Shown here in pieces: positions 13,087 through 28,739 of a stretch of DNA of 40,955 bases. Under the pieces are notes generated by a model. It did not search any database, was not told where the DNA came from, and worked only from the letters and a program-made list of their open reading frames with translations. A program made the translations under genes and the position numbers. Positions within the stretch are counted from its first letter, which is position 1. Every line of letters begins with the position of its first letter. Origin of the DNA: Acidobacteriota bacterium. GTDB taxonomy: Bacteria; Acidobacteriota; Blastocatellia; HR10. Location: the NCBI GenBank assembly GCA_030550025.1, contig JAUQQC010000018.1:1-40955 (forward strand), written 5' to 3'.

Positions 13087-14691
13087 ATGCTCAGCAAGGA
13101 GAAAGGTGCGATGAGGCGACACGACCAACACATAGGCCGTTGGGCGCACGCCGCGATTGAGAAGTGGGTGCTGTGGCTTTTCATTCGAGCTTGGAGAAGG
13201 CGCGAGTTCAGACGACGACTTCTGGTCGGGTTCGCACTTCTCCTGGTTTCTGGATTCCCTCTTCATACGCCGCGACTCGCCGCTTCTGGGCAAGAGGAGA
13301 CCCATGTCGTCGTGATCTCCATTGATGGCCTCGTGCCCGATTACTATCGGAATCCGGATCGCTACGGGTTGAAGATTCCCACGTTGCGTCGGCTGCGCAA
13401 CGAAGGGGCGTTCGCCGATGCCGTGATTGGCGTGTATCCGTCGGTGACGTATCCGTCGCACACGGCGATTGTCACGGGTGCGCGCCCGCGCGATCACGGC
13501 ATCTACTTCAATCGCATCTTCGAGGAGCCGACGGCGCCGCAGACGGGGCGTTGGTACTGGTGGGCTTCGGCCATTCGGAGCGACACACTCTGGGCGGCGG
13601 CGCGTCGCGCTGGGCGTCGCACGGCGGCCATCAGTTGGCCCGTCACCGTGGAGGCCGAGATCGAGCACAACATTCCGGAGATCTTCGATCCCAGGGCAGC
13701 TCAAGGTGGGCCGCCCGTTTGGGCGCTCGTCGCACAGCATGCGCGACCGGCGGGCCTTGTGGAAGAAATCTTGCAGGCGGTGGGAAAGCCTGAGGCTTTG
13801 GAAGATGATGATCTGCGTGTGGAAGCCGCCGTGTATTTGCTCACGCGCTTCCGGCCGCATTTGTTGCTCCTGCATCTCATTCAACTGGACGGCGTGCAAC
13901 ATCGCACGGGTCCGCACTCGAAGGAAGCGTATGCCGAGCTGGAGAAGCAGGATGCGCGCATCGGGCGTGTTCTGGAGGCGATTCGGCGCGCCGGACTTGA
14001 AGCGCGCACGACCGTGGCGATCGTCTCCGATCACGGCTTTATGCCTGTGGAGCGAGAGTTTCATCCGGGCGTGGTGCTCGCGCAGGCGGGCTTGGTGAAA
14101 TTCGATTCGAGCGGGCGCATCGTCGAGTGGCACGCCGCGGTGTGGTCCAATGGGGGGTCGGCGGCCATCTTTCTGCGCGATCCTTCGGATACGGCTGCAC
14201 GCGAAACCGTGCGGCGGCTCTTTGAGGAATGGGCGCGAAGGCCGGGCTCGCCGCTATTGCGCGTGATCGAGGCTTCGGAGCTGGAGCAGCTGGGCGCGGC
14301 GCCGACGGCCGCGTTCTTTCTGGAAGCCGCAGATTTCTGCGCCTTCGGGGGAGACTATCGCGGCGAAGCACTTCGTCCCGCCCGTCCGAATTATCGCGGC
14401 TCGCACGGCTATTTGCCCGATCGCCCGCAGATGTTCGCTTCGCTCATCCTCTGGGGACGCGGCGTGCGCCGCGGCGCTCGCGCTCCGGTGGTCAACATGA
14501 CGGACATTGCACCGACGCTCGCCGCGCTTCTGGGCGTAGACCTGAAGGCGCCGGCCTACAGTCGCCCGATCGCGCTGTTCCTGGACCTGCCCTCTCGCGG
14601 GCCGAGTGATCGCCGCAGCCTGTCGCGCGCCGATCATGGGGTCGCCCCGCTGTTGAATATGGGCCGCAGAAGGATGCACCGTTCGACATGA
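13087..14691 (+). CDS. ENPP-like alkaline-phosphatase-superfamily phosphodiesterase
   Basis: The protein has 534 residues with an N-terminal membrane or signal segment at about residues 40-62. The type I phosphodiesterase/nucleotide pyrophosphatase motif set is recognisable. D80 lies in VVVISIDGL, and the nucleophile threonine T121 in SVTYPSHTAIVTGARP is followed by DHGIYFN. LDGVQHRTGP gives Asp and His, IVSDHGFMP gives Asp-His, and RGSHGYLPD supplies the last His. All metal and nucleophile positions therefore look intact. The enzyme should act outside the cytoplasm on phosphodiester or pyrophosphate bonds, perhaps nucleotides or polyprenyl-linked sugars. AGGAGGGCAA precedes the ATG. Its stop overlaps the glycosyltransferase start (ATGA, 14688-14691), so the two are translationally coupled. 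Confidence 0.9.
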   Translation: MLSKEKGAMRRHDQHIGRWAHAAIEKWVLWLFIRAWRRREFRRRLLVGFALLLVSGFPLHTPRLAASGQEETHVVVISIDGLVPDYYRNPDRYGLKIPTLRRLRNEGAFADAVIGVYPSVTYPSHTAIVTGARPRDHGIYFNRIFEEPTAPQTGRWYWWASAIRSDTLWAAARRAGRRTAAISWPVTVEAEIEHNIPEIFDPRAAQGGPPVWALVAQHARPAGLVEEILQAVGKPEALEDDDLRVEAAVYLLTRFRPHLLLLHLIQLDGVQHRTGPHSKEAYAELEKQDARIGRVLEAIRRAGLEARTTVAIVSDHGFMPVEREFHPGVVLAQAGLVKFDSSGRIVEWHAAVWSNGGSAAIFLRDPSDTAARETVRRLFEEWARRPGSPLLRVIEASELEQLGAAPTAAFFLEAADFCAFGGDYRGEALRPARPNYRGSHGYLPDRPQMFASLILWGRGVRRGARAPVVNMTDIAPTLAALLGVDLKAPAYSRPIALFLDLPSRGPSDRRSLSRADHGVAPLLNMGRRRMHRST

Positions 14692-15887
14692 GCCGGGAGC
14701 AACTTCTGGCTTACGGATATATTGTGGGAGCGAGCTTCGTCCTCTCGAACGGATTGGTCTTGGCGGCGCGCCAGGTGGCGCTCGCCTTTGGCGTTTTGGA
14801 CTACCCGGGCGAGCACAAGCGGCATCGGGAACCGAAGCCCCTTTTGGGCGGCGTAGCCATATTCCTTGCGCTCCTTTTGGTCATCGGGGGGCATTTGGCG
14901 GCCTTACCCCTCTTGCGCCAACAGGAGCCGGTGCGGCAGCTCTTCCCCGCCGTGCTCGCCAAGTTCGAGACGGTCGGGCTCATACTGCCCACGCTCGGGG
15001 CGATCTTGGCCGGTTCGGTCATCGTCCTTCTCACGGGATTGGCCGATGATCTCTCCGGCCCACACTTTCCCGCGTGGGCGAAGCTGCTGGGACAAACGGT
15101 AGCGGCGACGCTGGTCATCGCAGCCGGCGTGCGCATCTCGCTCTTTGAAGTGCATCCATGGTTGGCGGCGCTGGTGACGCTCGTCTGGATCGTTGGCATC
15201 AGTAACGCGTTCAATCTGCTCGATAACATGGATGGGTTGGCGACGGGCGTCGCCATCATCTGCAGTCTCTTGCTTTGGTTCATCACAACTGCGCTCGGAG
15301 AGTTTTACATCGGACTGTTCCTTTCGGCGCTCATCGGGACGCTGGCCGGCTTCCTCGTGCATAATTTCCCTCCCGCACGCCTCTTCCTCGGCGATGCTGG
15401 GAGCTTGTTGATCGGCTATCTCCTCGGCGTCCTCACGGTCTTGGCGTCCTACGTCGCCCCTGAGGAGAAGATTCGCAACGAATGGTTCGCTCCCTTCATG
15501 CCCGTGATCGTGCTCGGACTCCCCCTTTACGATATGGCCTCGGTGATCTGGATTCGATGGCGAGAAGGACGGCCAATCCATCGGGGCGATCGTTCGCATC
15601 TATCGCATCGGCTTGTGGAGCTGGGGATGAGCGAGCGCGAGGCCGTAGGAACGATCTATCTCCTGACGTTCTGTTTGGGGGCGAGTGCGCTCTTGCTCCG
15701 AGATGCGACGCCGATGTTGACGCTTCTGGCGCTTGGGCAAGTCGGGGCGACCATCGCCCTGACGACGATCCTCATGATCGTGCCCCGACGCACGAGCTTC
15801 GTCGAACTTCGCCTCTTCTCAGATCCGGATGACCGAGCGTCGCGCTCGAACGCTTCTGAACGGGAACGCAGCCCGCTTTCGGAGTGA
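14688..15887 (+). CDS. Polyprenyl-phosphate sugar-1-phosphate transferase (WecA/MraY family)
   Basis: This 399-residue polytopic membrane protein has about eleven hydrophobic segments. It transfers a sugar-1-phosphate (in WecA/TagO, GlcNAc-1-P) from a UDP-sugar to undecaprenyl phosphate, the first step of an envelope polysaccharide. Family motifs are clear: HKRHREPKPLLGGVAIF, GLADDLSG, NAFNLLDNMDGLATG, ARLFLGDAGSLLIGY and the cytoplasmic RGDRSHLSHRLVELG loop. The lack of MraY-specific motifs and the polysaccharide-export context point to the WecA/TagO branch, not peptidoglycan synthesis. It lies between the ENPP-like gene (4-bp overlap) and the outer-membrane barrel gene (3-bp gap). Confidence 0.92.
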   Translation: MSREQLLAYGYIVGASFVLSNGLVLAARQVALAFGVLDYPGEHKRHREPKPLLGGVAIFLALLLVIGGHLAALPLLRQQEPVRQLFPAVLAKFETVGLILPTLGAILAGSVIVLLTGLADDLSGPHFPAWAKLLGQTVAATLVIAAGVRISLFEVHPWLAALVTLVWIVGISNAFNLLDNMDGLATGVAIICSLLLWFITTALGEFYIGLFLSALIGTLAGFLVHNFPPARLFLGDAGSLLIGYLLGVLTVLASYVAPEEKIRNEWFAPFMPVIVLGLPLYDMASVIWIRWREGRPIHRGDRSHLSHRLVELGMSEREAVGTIYLLTFCLGASALLLRDATPMLTLLALGQVGATIALTTILMIVPRRTSFVELRLFSDPDDRASRSNASERERSPLSE

Positions 15888-15890
15888 TGG

Positions 15891-17297
15891 ATGCGAAGGA
15901 CGGCCCTCGCATGCGCGTTCGTCCTTCTTTGGTGGATGGGCCTTTCGCTGGCTCAAACGTCGCCGCCGACTCCACCGCAACCGGCGGCCCGACCGCCTTC
16001 AGAACCGTCGCCTCTCCCAATCGTGGCGCCGGGGAGCGATGTGACGGTCTTCGCGCCCGGCCGCTCCATTGCGCGCGACTATCTGCGCGGCGGGATCGTG
16101 CTGGGCCGAGCGCTTCTGCGTCCCACGCTGGAACTAGGGCTGGAAGGTGACAGCAATTTCCTCGCGCTGGCAGAGACGCGCGGCGCCCGAAACGGCATCT
16201 TCGCCGTCGCCCCCGGATTGGATCTGGAAGTCCCTGCGCTGCGGAGCGGATTTCGCCTGATGTATTCCCCCCTCATCCGCATGCTCCGTATCGCGGGACT
16301 CCCACCGTCGAATGTAGCGCATCGGCTTGAGTTCGATTTCACGACCCATTTGGGACCGGCGGTGACCCTTGCCGTTCGCGAACACTGGACGAAGGCGACC
16401 TTCGACACGCTCGAGTTCGATCCGGCGCGCGAGCTCTTCTTCAACCCCAAGCCCTTTTGGCGAAACGATCTCGCCTTGCGTGCGGAATACGCGCTGACCG
16501 AGCGCGATCGCGTGAGTGCGTACATTGGCCTCAATCGCGTGGAGCTTTCCGGTCCCCCTCAGCCCGAAGACCTTTTCTTCGACTACACGACGGGAACGCT
16601 CGCTCTCGCCTACGCGCGCCGATGGCGTCCGCGCCATACGATTCAATTCGATCTGGAGATCGGGCGCACCTATTCCCGTCGGGCCGAGAACGCGCGCGAT
16701 CCGCGATTGAATGACGCACGGCTTCTGCAGTTGGGAGCGACGATCCGCAGCCAAGTGATGCCCACGTTGCGCGCCGAAGTACAAGTGGCCGCGCGCCGTC
16801 ATCGCTTTCCGCGTGCGATCCGGAGTTTCTTCGGCCCGTATCTGGCCTTCTCCGTGGAGCGCGAATTCGGCCACCGGCTGACGCTCTCCGTAAGCGGTAT
16901 ACGCACGACCGCGCTCTCGGCCTTCAATCCCGAAGAGGGGAATGCTTTCGCCGTGACCTCCGGTCTCTCGGCCGCCCTCGCACAGCGCATCGGGCCGCGA
17001 CTCACGTGGACGATCGGAGCCGATCTGCAACGCCTGACATTTCCCGTCCCTCTGGGCCTCGATTCGAGCTTTGGTGGAGTACCCCTTTGGGAATTCGCCG
17101 GCGTACAGCGCACGGATCACCTGGTGGGCGCGCGTGCCGAGATCACGTTTCGTTTGCACGAGCTTCTGGCCGCGCAAGTCGGCTATATCTTCCACGAGCG
17201 CGGTTCGACAGTCACGCCCTTCTCCTTCGAGCGGAGTCGGTTTAAAATGGGGCTGGTCCTGGGCCGCTGGATCCCCAGGACGGCGACGAGCCGATGA
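15891..17297 (+). CDS. Outer-membrane beta-barrel protein of the polysaccharide operon
   Basis: The protein has 468 residues. A signal peptide (LACAFVLLWWMGLSLAQ) is followed by a proline-rich linker of about 35 residues (TSPPTPPQPAARPP). From about residue 75 to the end it is built of alternating hydrophobic/polar strands and aromatic girdle residues, as in outer-membrane barrels (LRPTLELGLEGDSNF, HTIQFDLEIGRTY, RFKMGLVLGRW). It resembles barrel proteins found with exopolysaccharide export genes in Gram-negative bacteria, where they may form or assist the outer-membrane exit pore. That role is inference. It starts 3 bp after the transferase gene with GGAG upstream, and it overlaps the export-protein gene by 4 bp. 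Confidence 0.8.
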   Translation: MRRTALACAFVLLWWMGLSLAQTSPPTPPQPAARPPSEPSPLPIVAPGSDVTVFAPGRSIARDYLRGGIVLGRALLRPTLELGLEGDSNFLALAETRGARNGIFAVAPGLDLEVPALRSGFRLMYSPLIRMLRIAGLPPSNVAHRLEFDFTTHLGPAVTLAVREHWTKATFDTLEFDPARELFFNPKPFWRNDLALRAEYALTERDRVSAYIGLNRVELSGPPQPEDLFFDYTTGTLALAYARRWRPRHTIQFDLEIGRTYSRRAENARDPRLNDARLLQLGATIRSQVMPTLRAEVQVAARRHRFPRAIRSFFGPYLAFSVEREFGHRLTLSVSGIRTTALSAFNPEEGNAFAVTSGLSAALAQRIGPRLTWTIGADLQRLTFPVPLGLDSSFGGVPLWEFAGVQRTDHLVGARAEITFRLHELLAAQVGYIFHERGSTVTPFSFERSRFKMGLVLGRWIPRTATSR

Positions 17298-18205
17298 TGA
17301 ACACGTTCGCGCGACGATCCGAGAGACGACGTTGTGGAAGAGCGCTTGCCTTCCTTGGCGCTCTTCTCCTTCTCGCCGCTCAACCGCACGCCTTCAGCGC
17401 GCCACTTCCTCAAGAGGCCGCGCGGCGAAAACTGACCGCTGCGTCGGCGGACGTGCCCGAGTCGCGGCTTGCGGAAATTTATCGCGTGGGCCCGGAAGAT
17501 GTGCTGGAGATCACGCTCGCGAATGATCCCGAGCTGCCGCGCGAGTATCGCGTCTCCTCCGGTGGGCATATTTTCTTCCCCTACGTGGGGAGCGTCCCGG
17601 TCGCTGGGAAGACGACGGCGCAAATCGAAGAGGAACTGCGACAGCTTTTGCGAAACGGATACTTCGAGGACCCCGAACTTACGGTGGCCGTCAAGGAGTA
17701 CCGCAGCCACACCGTCTATTTGCTCGGGGATGTGGGGACAGTGGGGCCGATCGTCCTCACGCGCGAGCGCGTCCCGCTGATCGAAATCCTCGCGCGCGCG
17801 GGCGTGCGTTCGACGGCGCGCCGCGTCACGCTCACTCGGTGGAGCGAGGGACATCTGGTGACGCTCCTCATAGACCTCAGCGCGCCGGAAAAGTACACGA
17901 CGCTTGTCGCCCCCGGCGACATCCTCGAAGTCCACTCGCCCAAGGAATATGTCTTCATCACGGGTGAAGTCCGAACGCCGCAGGCCATTGAATATACCCC
18001 CGGCCTCACCCTCTCGCAGGCGATCATTCATGCGGGAGGCCCCAGCGAATTCGCCAAGCGCAGCAAAATCCAAATCAAGCGCCGGCGCGCCGATGGCGGC
18101 ATTGAGATTCTGCGCGCCGATTTCGATGAGATCATCCGCGGCCAACGTCCCGATGTGGAACTCAAGCCCAATGATACCGTCTTCGTCCCCAGGCGCTTTT
18201 GGTGA
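17294..18205 (+). CDS. Polysaccharide export protein (Wza/SLBB type)
   Basis: The protein has 303 residues with a signal peptide (AFLGALLLLAAQPHAFSA). The Poly_export domain begins at YRVGPEDVLEITLANDPELP and ends near VAVKEYRSHTVYLLGDV. Two SLBB-like segments follow (VYLLGDVGTVGPIVL and VFITGEVRTPQAIEYTPG), ending with ELKPNDTVFVPRRFW. This is the layout of outer-membrane auxiliary proteins that form the periplasmic/outer-membrane channel for capsule or exopolysaccharide. No lipobox cysteine is present, unlike E. coli Wza. It is the last gene of the operon and ends 20 bp from a convergent gene. The inner-membrane copolymerase, flippase and polymerase are not in the window. Confidence 0.92.
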   Translation: MMNTFARRSERRRCGRALAFLGALLLLAAQPHAFSAPLPQEAARRKLTAASADVPESRLAEIYRVGPEDVLEITLANDPELPREYRVSSGGHIFFPYVGSVPVAGKTTAQIEEELRQLLRNGYFEDPELTVAVKEYRSHTVYLLGDVGTVGPIVLTRERVPLIEILARAGVRSTARRVTLTRWSEGHLVTLLIDLSAPEKYTTLVAPGDILEVHSPKEYVFITGEVRTPQAIEYTPGLTLSQAIIHAGGPSEFAKRSKIQIKRRRADGGIEILRADFDEIIRGQRPDVELKPNDTVFVPRRFW

Positions 18206-18225: not shown

Positions 18226-18780
18226 CTACGGTCCAAAGGGAGGTAGGCACGCGCATCTTGGGCGTGGTAGATCCGGATCAATCTGGCAGATCCATCCGGG
18301 GGTATCACAGCAGCGATTTGGGAACCGCCCACATTGCCCTGGGGGACGCCGAGAGCAGTCTATGGCAGTAACGCACGTCGCCACCTGAGCGGCCGTCGGG
18401 GCGAGGATGGCTTTGACCGTAGGGAGTAAGAGGGCGAGACTCGCCGAGAGTCCCCATCGTCCGAGCTGACGCATCGCCTCCCGCCGAGATGGGGAGTGCG
18501 GATCGTTCAAAAAAAGCGGCCAGTTCTCCAAAAGGCGCGCCCGGGCCAAGCGGTTCACAGCCAAGCGCACGAGCGTTTCACCTTCCGGCACCCGGAAGAC
18601 GCGCTCGACGGCGCGGCTCAAGGCCGCGATCGTGCGCCGCCCATTGGCCCGCCGCCAGACCAGCGCCGCCATCGGATTCAGACAAAAGGCGCGATGCCGC
18701 CGTTGATCGTAGATCAGTAGCTCCTCCCCCACCTCCTGCACGATCAGATCCTCCCGCCGCGCCTTGGGCCGTTCCCTCAT
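18226..18780 (-). CDS. PqqD-like protein with internal Tat-like signal and cysteine-rich tail
   Basis: This 184-residue protein has three parts. Residues 10-86 resemble a PqqD/RRE winged-helix domain (LLIYDQRRHRAFCLNPMAALVW, then a helical region). Residues 97-125 look like an internal twin-arginine signal, PSRREAMR followed by a hydrophobic stretch (WGLSASLALLLPTVKAIL) and APTAAQVA. The tail (136-184) holds eight cysteines at 136, 142, 150, 157, 158, 165, 176 and 178, with an adjacent Cys-Cys pair as in small disulfide-knot proteins. From memory, PqqD-like proteins with this kind of tail occur in other acidobacterial genomes, but I know of no function. It overlaps the kinase gene by 4 bp. 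Confidence 0.75.
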   Translation of the reverse strand: MRERPKARREDLIVQEVGEELLIYDQRRHRAFCLNPMAALVWRRANGRRTIAALSRAVERVFRVPEGETLVRLAVNRLARARLLENWPLFLNDPHSPSRREAMRQLGRWGLSASLALLLPTVKAILAPTAAQVATCVTAIDCSRRPPGQCGRFPNRCCDTPGWICQIDPDLPRPRCACLPPFGP

Positions 18781-19607
18781 TGCTCTTCCTCCAAAATGGC
18801 CAACAGCGTTTGTGCCAGCTCTTCAGCTTCCCCCCGCGCGCTCTTCAGAGCGCGAACATGTTCGACGAGCGCGCCGAGCGTCTCGAGCACGGACTTCGGC
18901 GCCCACGCTGTCGAGAACACATGTCGCAACAGCTCCACACCTGCCTCCCCAGCCGAGAGCTTGCGCGGTCGCCATCGCCTCCCGGCGCGATAGCCCGTGA
19001 AGACGATAAGCCCGACCGGGAGCGGACGACGTGCCGTCCTCCCCCCCAGAGCTTCCGCCGAATGTCTCTCTACTTTTCCGGACTCCGAGCACATCAGCTC
19101 GAGCGGAACCGGATAAGGATGCACGCGCCCATACCGGTCGAGAACGGCGAAGCGATCAGACAAGTAGCTCGCTCCCGCGCGCACGAGCGCCGCGACCAAG
19201 CGACTCTTGCCACTGCCTCGCGGACCCGGCAAGAGGAGCGCCCGCCCTCGCCACCCGACCGCGCCCGCGTGCACGAACACATGCCGCGGTGCGGCCTCGG
19301 CGATGTAAAAGTGCAGGTCCAGCTCAAACAGACGCAGCGCCTCCTCAAGATCGAACGTTCGTGCTAAACGCGCCGCTCCCGAATAGACGAGATGATACCG
19401 GCGCACGCGCTCTCCCGGTTGCCCGTCCCCGAGAATGAGCGAGTACAAATAGTCCACCATCGGCGTGCGCGCTGGCTTCCACCCCGGGGGCAAAAGCGGC
19501 CAGACGTACTGCAGAGCGCGCGCATGGTTTGCGCGAACGCCCACGCGCACGCCAAATGCCTCAATCGCCAGTCCGGCCGCCCACCCGAGGCGGTCGAGCT
19601 TCTCCAT
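18777..19607 (-). CDS. HprK-related kinase-like protein
   Basis: The protein has 276 residues. The C-terminal half has a HPr-kinase-like P-loop, LLLPGPRGSGKSRL (Walker A at residues 128-135), followed by YLSDRFAVLD (148-157) at the position of the HprK acidic strand. It lacks the HPr kinase/phosphorylase signature loop and the N-terminal sensor domain of true HprK. It therefore probably belongs to the HprK-related kinases that are paired with PqqD-like proteins (the group called the HPr-rel-A system in protein family models). The phosphorylated target is unknown. The gene overlaps the PqqD-like gene (18777-18780). Its ATG directly abuts the stop of a 17-codon upstream reading frame. Confidence 0.75.
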   Translation of the reverse strand: MEKLDRLGWAAGLAIEAFGVRVGVRANHARALQYVWPLLPPGWKPARTPMVDYLYSLILGDGQPGERVRRYHLVYSGAARLARTFDLEEALRLFELDLHFYIAEAAPRHVFVHAGAVGWRGRALLLPGPRGSGKSRLVAALVRAGASYLSDRFAVLDRYGRVHPYPVPLELMCSESGKVERHSAEALGGRTARRPLPVGLIVFTGYRAGRRWRPRKLSAGEAGVELLRHVFSTAWAPKSVLETLGALVEHVRALKSARGEAEELAQTLLAILEEEQ

Positions 19608-19661
19608 TCAGGGTGAGCCCCACCGCAATCGCGGCAGTAGCCCCAACGATGCGCTCTCCAT
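19608..19661 (-). other. Possible 17-codon leader peptide before the kinase gene
   Basis: An ATG at 19661 is preceded by GGAGGAGAG (19674-19666), a better ribosome binding site than the kinase gene itself has. It opens the frame MESASLGLLPRLRWGSP. Its TGA (19610-19608) touches the kinase ATG at 19607, in the same frame. It may serve to couple translation. Alternatively it is chance, or a single in-frame stop in a longer N-terminus. Confidence 0.4.
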
Positions 19662-26953: not shown

Positions 26954-27098
26954 CCGGCGTGGGTTGGCGCCATGAGATGGGCGTCCAAACGTCTTCGGGA
27001 GCACTTCTTCTGCGCCGAAGGCTCTTGTGCCGGAAGGTGTAACCGACCAAATGGAGCGGGCGTCTTTTGAGAGCGAGCATACGCGGAGAGGAGGCGCT

Positions 27099-28739
27099 AT
27101 GGAGATTTCGCGGCGGAAGTTTTTGCGCTACTGCGGCGTGACGACGGTCACGCTGACTACGGTGAGGGATTGGCCGCTCAGCGCGGTGGCCGAGGTCTCG
27201 GCGCGAACGCTCCTTGTGACGGATTGGAAGGAGTTGGCCGACGTCGCCTTGGGGACGGCGCGACAGTTGGGCGCCGACTATGCCGATATTCGCATTATTC
27301 GCTCACGTCGGGAGACAGTCGCCGTCGGTCCGGGAGGCGGCGGTGGGTTCGGCGCGTTCTTCGCCGAAGAAGAAACGGGGCGCGATCGGCGCCCAACGCG
27401 CGTCACCCGCTCGGAGAGCCTTGGCTTCGGCGTGCGCGTCCTCTACAACGGGACGTGGGGATTTTCGGCCAGCCCCATGATCACCCCCGATGAGATCCGG
27501 CGCATCGCGGCTGAGGCGGTCGCTATCGCACGCGCCAATGCGGCGATCAACACGGCGCGCGTGCGCTTGGCTCCGGTGAAGGCGTACCGCGAGACCTGGC
27601 GGACGCCAATCGTGAAGAATCCCTTCGATGTGAGCTTGGATGAGAAGATCGGTCTGCTGGTCAGGGTGGACGAAATCGGGCGAAAGGTCAAAGGCGTCGC
27701 GCGCGTCGCCGCCTCGCTCGCCTTCGTGCACGAGCACAAACGCTTCGCTTCGACCGAGGGCTCCTACATCGAGCAGCACATCTACCACACGCTCCCCAAT
27801 CTCACGGTCACGGCCTTGCGACGTGATGCGGGCGCGCGTCCGGACGTCGCCACGCGTAATGCCTTCATCCCCCCGCAGAGCATCGGGTATGAATACGTCG
27901 AGCAGTTGAAGTGGGAGGAGATCGTCGAACAGATCGCCCATGAAGCCGTCGAGATGCTCTCGGCCAAGGAGGTGCAGCCCGGACGCTACACGTTGCTCAT
28001 CGCGCCCTCGAATCTCTATCTCACGATCCATGAGACGATCGGACATTCGACGGAATTGGATCGCGTCCTCGGCTATGAGGCGAATTTCGCCGGGACGAGC
28101 TTCCTCACGCTGGACAAGCTCGGGAAGTATCGCGTTGGATCGAAGATCGTCAATTTCGTCGCCGATCGCACGACGCCCGGCGGATTGGCGACCGTCGGCT
28201 ATGACGATGATGGCGTGCCGGCGCAGCGGTGGCACTTGATCCGAGAGGGCATCCTCGTCGGCTATCAGACGACGCGCGAGCTGGCGCACGTCGTTCGGGA
28301 GAACTTCTCGCGCGGCTGCAGCTATGCCGATAGTTGGAGCTCCATGCCGATCCCGCGCATGCCCAACGTCTGGCTTGAGCCCGGAAAAGATCGGCTCAGT
28401 CCTGACGATCTCATCGCCGATACTAAAGCGGGCATCCTCATCGAGGGACGCGGCAGCTACTCGATTGATCAGCAACGGCTCAACTTCCAATTCGGCGGCA
28501 ACGCCTTCTGGGAGATTAAAAACGGCAAGAAGGTCGGCATGCTCCGCAACGTCGTCTATCAATCCTATACGCCCGAATTCTGGAATTCCTGTGACGCCAT
28601 CTGCAGTCAGGAGTATTGGGTCAATCAAGGCACGCCCGGAGATGGCAAGGGCGAGCCGCAACAGACCAATAGCGTCAGCCATGGCTGCGCCATGGCGCGC
28701 TTCCGTAACATCACCGTCTTCAATTCAGGAGGGGTGTGA
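27099..28739 (+). CDS. TldD-like metalloprotease with Tat signal
   Basis: The protein has 546 residues from the ATG at 27099, chosen for GGAGAGGAGG just upstream and because the protein then begins with a twin-arginine signal (MEISRRKFLRYCGVTTVTL). The TldD/PmbA fold follows: N-terminal domain with GADYADIRII, then HETIGHSTELDRVLGYEANFAGTSF containing the HExxxH zinc motif (H311, H315). Near the C-terminus, NSCDAICSQEYW is followed by GDGKGEPQQ. In E. coli TldD the third zinc ligand is a Cys at the CGKEGQ position; here that position appears to be Asp (D515). TldD/TldE heterodimers cleave modified or unfolded peptides. An exported location would be unusual. The TldE-like gene follows 3 bp later. 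Confidence 0.9.
   Translation: MEISRRKFLRYCGVTTVTLTTVRDWPLSAVAEVSARTLLVTDWKELADVALGTARQLGADYADIRIIRSRRETVAVGPGGGGGFGAFFAEEETGRDRRPTRVTRSESLGFGVRVLYNGTWGFSASPMITPDEIRRIAAEAVAIARANAAINTARVRLAPVKAYRETWRTPIVKNPFDVSLDEKIGLLVRVDEIGRKVKGVARVAASLAFVHEHKRFASTEGSYIEQHIYHTLPNLTVTALRRDAGARPDVATRNAFIPPQSIGYEYVEQLKWEEIVEQIAHEAVEMLSAKEVQPGRYTLLIAPSNLYLTIHETIGHSTELDRVLGYEANFAGTSFLTLDKLGKYRVGSKIVNFVADRTTPGGLATVGYDDDGVPAQRWHLIREGILVGYQTTRELAHVVRENFSRGCSYADSWSSMPIPRMPNVWLEPGKDRLSPDDLIADTKAGILIEGRGSYSIDQQRLNFQFGGNAFWEIKNGKKVGMLRNVVYQSYTPEFWNSCDAICSQEYWVNQGTPGDGKGEPQQTNSVSHGCAMARFRNITVFNSGGV

Follow-up and report, generated by a model that had tools for sequence, protein, structure and literature searches.

Overlapping genes for a kinase and a three-part protein

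The stretch of DNA analyzed here, referred to as the window, comprises 40,955 nt of an Acidobacteriota bacterium of the class Blastocatellia (contig JAUQQC010000018.1 of assembly GCA_030550025.1) and carries on its minus strand two overlapping open reading frames (ORFs), one for an HprK-related kinase of 276 aa (18777..19607) and one for a precursor-like protein of 184 aa (18226..18780). The latter consists of three parts: a PqqD-like domain of the kind known as recognition element (RRE) of ribosomally synthesized and post-translationally modified peptides (RiPPs), an internal signal of the twin-arginine translocation (Tat) type, and a tail with eight cysteines. An earlier note, made from the sequence alone, had described such a pair of an HprK-like P-loop protein and a three-part PqqD protein, and ORFs, translations and domain matches agree with it; only its placement of the kinase up to position 19661 has to be corrected, as the ORF begins at 19607 and the ORF list holds no in-frame start up to 19661. 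Both ORFs start with ATG, and the precursor start overlaps the kinase gene by 4 bp (ATGA). The assembly of this genome (3.17 Mb) contains one copy of the three-part protein.

The PqqD/RRE-like domain spans residues 1 to about 85 (18526..18780; all features of the pair are given on the minus strand). Residues 21-68 match PF05402 (PqqD) with E=3.8e-6 and 27.6 bits, above the curated cutoff of 23.4 bits, and the same model is matched by 50/50 aligned family members at E<=0.01. Comparison of the front section of the family profile with PDB sequences gave weak matches to PqqD and to the lasso RRE TbiB1 (5v1u, E=0.59); the matches of the family profile to the PDB, with E from 0.06 to 0.6, are to be taken as leads only. 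AlphaFold2 modeling of the precursor from a two-row alignment (window protein and L002) yielded a low-confidence structure (pLDDT 52), in which the PqqD region follows the order strand-strand-strand-helix-helix-helix.

The Tat-like signal covers residues 98-134 (SRREAMRQLGRW...APTAAQVA; 18379..18489). It opens with SRREAMRQLG at residues 98-107, including the twin arginines 99-100, and continues with a hydrophobic stretch, Pro 120, Pro 128 and small residues near the predicted cleavage site. The remainder, residues 135-184 (18229..18378), is the cysteine-rich tail and the proposed exported core. Its eight cysteines (136, 142, 150, 157, 158, 165, 176, 178) extend across 43 residues in the arrangement C-x5-C-x7-C-x6-CC-x6-C-x10-C-x-C with a central Cys-Cys.

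Three orthologues of the genus keep the tail in frame with 8/8 cysteines, and L032 and L002, which stem from two other genomes of the genus, retain both the reading frame and all eight cysteines. Among genus orthologues, the PqqD part has a dN/dS of about 0.12, the signal of 0.08-0.17 and the tail of 0.07-0.25, and third-position changes are in excess; these ratios are rough, as dS of the tail is near saturation; dN of the tail is three to seven times that of the PqqD part. This pattern, together with conservation of frame and cysteines, indicates a protein-coding tail that is under constraint at its cysteines and evolves faster at its other positions, and rules out a chance or out-of-frame tail.

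A widespread family with invariant arginines and variable tails

A family profile built from 50 members recovered the three-part layout in 95 of the 162 Blastocatellia genomes and in some genomes of other acidobacterial classes, so that the homologues called for by the earlier note form a real and widespread family. Every member combines RRE and proposed core in a single polypeptide. Copy numbers, which depend on assemblies of varied quality, are mostly low (one to a few per genome), but reached 38 in one genome (G030) and 44 in another (G057) when all copies were counted. Outside the Acidobacteriota, a plasmid of the cultured Gemmatirosa kalamazoonensis KBS708 (Gemmatimonadota; L165) carries, in this order, genes for a kinase, a PqqD-RR-six-Cys protein and a MauE-like protein with a thioredoxin motif; the opposite strand also has a nucleotidyltransferase-like gene. 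MauE-like genes with thioredoxin motifs, possibly disulfide-related, adjoin members at L054:5306-7072, L079:2-1099 and L165:6548-7471.

The signal was examined in an alignment of 95 members. Its twin arginines are invariant (95/95), while the basic positions 4 and 5 residues after them show a mixture of Arg and Lys (49/38 and 28/43, respectively), which argues for a Tat-type signal rather than a general demand for positive charge. Upstream of the proposed cleavage point, a Pro at -6 is invariant, and positions -3 and -1 are occupied by small residues. PF10518/TIGR01409 matched the signals of single members, and TatC is present in the window genome. Judged from sequence, what would be expected of a Tat substrate is thus in place: arginines not swapped for Lys, a hydrophobic region and TatC in the genome. 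Tat signals leave their N-terminus in the cytoplasm, and a domain N-terminal to the signal is therefore topologically possible.

The tails of 79 non-redundant members are hypervariable, with lengths of 23-100 residues, 4 to 18 cysteines (16% Cys) and few charged or aromatic residues. Their cysteine number is nevertheless even in 78/79 cases (binomial p=2.6e-22), which answers the check proposed in the earlier note, namely whether the tail varies while the cysteines stay. A loose inhibitor-cystine-knot pattern occurs in 28 of the 79 tails, compared with a mean of 3 in shuffled tails; many tails share with inhibitor cystine knot peptides a spacing of the C-x6-C-x5-CC-x3-C-x4-C type, whereas the window tail has eight cysteines at a different spacing and did not match the knottin models. 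Single members of the 50 aligned matched the Omega-toxin, Toxin_12, Conotoxin and UPF0506 models, and the tail section of the family profile weakly found spider-venom knottins in the PDB (5fzw, E=0.2).

Directly before the first core cysteine, the family has a conserved Ser/Thr, which in the window protein is Thr135 (18376..18378) and constitutes a candidate phosphorylation site. The position, two residues past the proposed cleavage site, is Ser or Thr in 82/94 members, relative to about 18% Ser/Thr in tails overall, and many members read AQS or AAS/AAT at the proposed core start.

Partner enzymes that probably act in trans

The window kinase finds its best NCBIfam match in TIGR04352 (HprK_rel_A; E=9e-20), with 70.9 bits below the 200-bit cutoff, and its relatives lie next to precursors in more than 20 instances. 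The P-loop GPRGSGKS (residues 128-135; 19203..19226) includes G133-K134, invariant in 26 relatives; Asp151 of the Ser-Asp-Arg motif at residues 150-152 (19152..19160) is invariant in the alignment. The window kinase keeps the His, the P-loop and the first Asp, but in its genus Arg152 replaces the Glu or Asp (Glu in most) of nearly all outside relatives, the equivalent pair in BsfK being D186-D187 (PMC10368454). Comparison of the kinase profile with PDB sequences gave no match, and an AlphaFold2 model from a two-row alignment was uninformative (pLDDT 32). The HPr-rel-A system (TIGR04352 kinase, TIGR04353 PqqD) likewise has an HprK-related kinase adjoining a PqqD-family protein and matches the window pair weakly, with both models far below their cutoffs; the models offer no statement on a Tat signal or Cys-rich tail for comparison.

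The kinase family was found in 96 of the 162 class genomes and closely follows the precursor: 89 of the 95 family-positive genomes encode both, 7 genomes the kinase only, 6 the precursor only (several of these being incomplete assemblies) and 60 neither. Fisher's test gives p=3e-29 by genome and 1.6e-11 by genus; since the species are related, we prefer the latter value, which corrects for relatedness to the genus level only. The kinase is mostly single-copy even where precursors are many, as in G030 and G057 with one kinase each. Among the neighbors scanned at 69 class loci with a member, a kinase lies within 1.5 kb at 29, a PF14907 nucleotidyltransferase at 30 and both at 17, the typical gene order being kinase, precursor, nucleotidyltransferase (for example, L046, L048, L051, L072, L090, L126, L129 and L141). 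Where precursors are scattered, kinase-nucleotidyltransferase pairs occur without a precursor (L146, L148, L149, L155, L159, L163), and the window genome has, on contig C3 (L125:8616-10638), a second kinase adjacent to a PF14907 nucleotidyltransferase with no precursor alongside. The single kinase, the scattered precursors and the standalone enzyme pairs suggest that the enzymes act in trans and find their substrates via the common PqqD domain. We also considered the nucleotidyltransferase as a marker at the genome level and rejected it, PF14907 being present in 149/162 genomes, so that only its adjacency is informative.

A probable self-guided precursor and its alternatives

We consider it somewhat more likely than not (roughly 0.55) that the three-part protein is a Tat-targeted precursor that carries its RRE in cis and delivers an exported disulfide-rich core modified in trans by the kinase. 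Architecture, conservation, cysteine parity, co-occurrence, operon order and copy number were determined directly, and the chemistry is our reading of them. The N-terminal PqqD/RRE domain would stay in the cytoplasm and recruit the HprK-like kinase, which would probably phosphorylate the conserved Ser/Thr at the core start; the PF14907 nucleotidyltransferase, where encoded, might then attach a sugar or a nucleotide to this phosphate. By way of its internal twin-arginine signal, the C-terminal part would cross the membrane via Tat, signal peptidase would cut at the small-residue site, and the exported tail would fold into a disulfide mini-protein, which in many members would resemble a knottin. 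All precursors of a genome would share one kinase and usually one nucleotidyltransferase, acting in trans.

This proposal draws on systems with proven chemistry. HprK-like kinases (PadeK, PsmK, BsfK) phosphorylate a Ser of lasso peptide precursors, the RRE protein B1 speeds up the reaction of BsfK, and PsmN adds a hexose to the phospho-Ser in pseudomycoidin (PMC9266682, PMC10368454). Linear polyphosphorylated peptides (LPPs) possess an RRE, an HprK-like kinase, an NTP transferase and a signal-peptidase-I-like enzyme without a cyclase, are phosphorylated at Ser3 of a core starting with AQS, and have clusters that also sit in capsule loci (Popov et al. 2026, PMC13381572). The family has in common with them an RRE, an HprK-like kinase and a PF14907-type NTP transferase, a conserved N-terminal and a highly variable C-terminal part, a capsule-locus context, processing of the signal-peptidase-I type (predicted for the family), and a residue near the core start that is a phosphorylated Ser in LPPs and a candidate Ser/Thr here. 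The enzyme set is found in many operons of relatives, and in the window genome in divided form, with kinase and RRE at the window and the second kinase and nucleotidyltransferase on another contig. The AQS-type core start bears a suggestive likeness to the LPP core, which signal-peptidase preferences may in part explain. LPPs differ by a separate RRE, a leader that is short, unfused and marked by a YxxP motif, a signal-peptidase-I-like peptidase of their own, an ABC transporter and an occurrence described as restricted to Bacillota, whereas in the family the RRE is fused to its substrate in every member, no separate leader exists to carry a YxxPxV motif, export is by appearance of the Tat type and the core is cysteine-rich. 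HprK-like kinase, RRE and PF14907 nucleotidyltransferase have a proven joint role in tailoring phosphorylated lasso peptides and LPPs (PMC9266682, PMC10368454, PMC13381572), and by analogy we favor modification over regulation, between which the earlier note had left the role of the kinase open. Nucleotidyltransferase, paralogue expansion and resemblance to LPPs go beyond that note.

Several observations weigh against a precursor guided in cis. It is unusual for a twin-arginine signal to follow a folded domain of about 95 residues; the residue at -1 is Ala in 80/95 members, and the window protein is an exception with Val. With Arg in place of the second acidic residue of its catalytic pair, the window kinase is of uncertain activity. 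PF14907 is absent from the window locus and common even in genomes where the family is missing. Finally, a few distant members (L128, L132, L134-L136) have Cys-free tails or almost no tail. From the sequences, the best reading is the earlier suggestion of a tail that is a peptide product and is guided by the recognition domain of its own protein, with one related subgroup departing from it. In the core family itself, neither homologues without twin arginines and cysteines nor out-of-frame tails, either of which the earlier note would have taken as refutation, were encountered.

Alternatively, the hydrophobic segment might be an uncleaved anchor of a membrane sensor, with PqqD inside, the variable Cys-rich domain sensing or binding outside and the kinase as signaling partner. 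The topology is compatible with this, kinase and family co-occur, and a polysaccharide export gene adjoins the window locus; we nonetheless consider a sensor unlikely in view of the signal-like c-region with its invariant Pro at -6 and small residues at -3/-1, of 38-44 hypervariable copies per single kinase, and of a PF14907 partner that suits peptide tailoring. Slightly less likely still is that the kinase-RRE-nucleotidyltransferase set belongs to cell-surface polysaccharide assembly, the Cys-rich tails being matrix or surface-linker proteins, perhaps glycan-joined with phosphorylation as attachment point. Poly_export, Wzy-type ligase, glycosyltransferases and PorU-like C25 peptidases do neighbor part of the loci, and LPP clusters are likewise found in capsule loci, but many members are scattered away from such genes, and this idea overlaps with the precursor reading rather than excluding it.

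A lasso or other known RiPP cluster with its maturase elsewhere, in which the PqqD protein would be a common B1 chaperone and its tail would be of no significance, appears very improbable. The PqqD domain resembles lasso B1 proteins such as TbiB1 weakly. With phosphorylated lasso peptides (paeninodin, pseudomycoidin, Bsf) the family shares an HprK-like kinase (acting there on a precursor Ser), an RRE and a nucleotidyltransferase (PsmN, BsfN). It differs in that the loci examined lack a macrolactam cyclase or B2 protease and that the core has 4-18 cysteines rather than a lasso ring. The lasso B2 leader peptidase model PF13471 had no match in the window genome, and neither an asparagine-synthetase-like cyclase nor another such maturase was seen among the window neighbors scanned, a genome-wide search for the cyclase not having been made. 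The tail is under purifying selection with its cysteines kept, and its conservation across genera largely refutes this explanation.

If the precursor reading holds, kinase and self-guided precursor family suggest a novel route to modified secreted peptides. Known RREs either form part of a modifying enzyme or serve as stand-alone adaptors. An RRE fused to the substrate would account for the service of a single enzyme set to many precursors at unlinked sites, and cores could be mined from genomes simply by looking at the C-terminus of PqqD proteins; the kinase-RRE-nucleotidyltransferase set would gain a role outside lasso peptides and LPPs, and Tat signals placed behind a folded domain become a testable question. 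If the tails are exported knottin-type peptides, Acidobacteria would offer a large and so far untapped supply of disulfide mini-proteins that are genetically encoded. We advance only tentatively the more far-reaching proposal of a separate ribosomal-peptide class, in which an RRE is fused before an internal Tat signal and a single kinase and nucleotidyltransferase, acting in trans, can modify the dozens of hypervariable disulfide mini-proteins of a genome ahead of their export by Tat, amounting to a bacterial venom-like knottin arsenal. In a literature search of incomplete coverage, no paper was found that joins PqqD, twin arginines and cysteine-rich tails, or an RRE domain and a Tat signal, and two RRE surveys contain no passages on twin arginines or kinases; the family is apparently unreported, with the caveat that absence from the literature is no proof of novelty.

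Among the distant relatives, L134:8139-8804, L135:2608-3423 and L136:8738-9172 encode PqqD plus twin-arginine proteins whose Cys-free tails consist of Gly/Thr repeats or are Pro-rich, with a kinase homologue nearby, indicating that the RRE-signal part can carry other cargo. Elsewhere in the window, a TldD/PmbA-type metallopeptidase is encoded on the plus strand (27027-28739), with the Tat-like signal MEISRRKFLRYCGVTTVTLTT ahead of it. Proteases of RiPPs are known among TldD-type proteins; a tie of this one to the precursor/kinase system would be hypothetical. Polysaccharide-type genes (Glycos_transf_4, BBP2_2-like, Poly_export/SLBB) at 14688-18205 on the plus strand converge on the precursor gene, and Peptidase C25/PorU-like proteins lie near members at 13/62 loci (L037, L039, L049, L067 and others).
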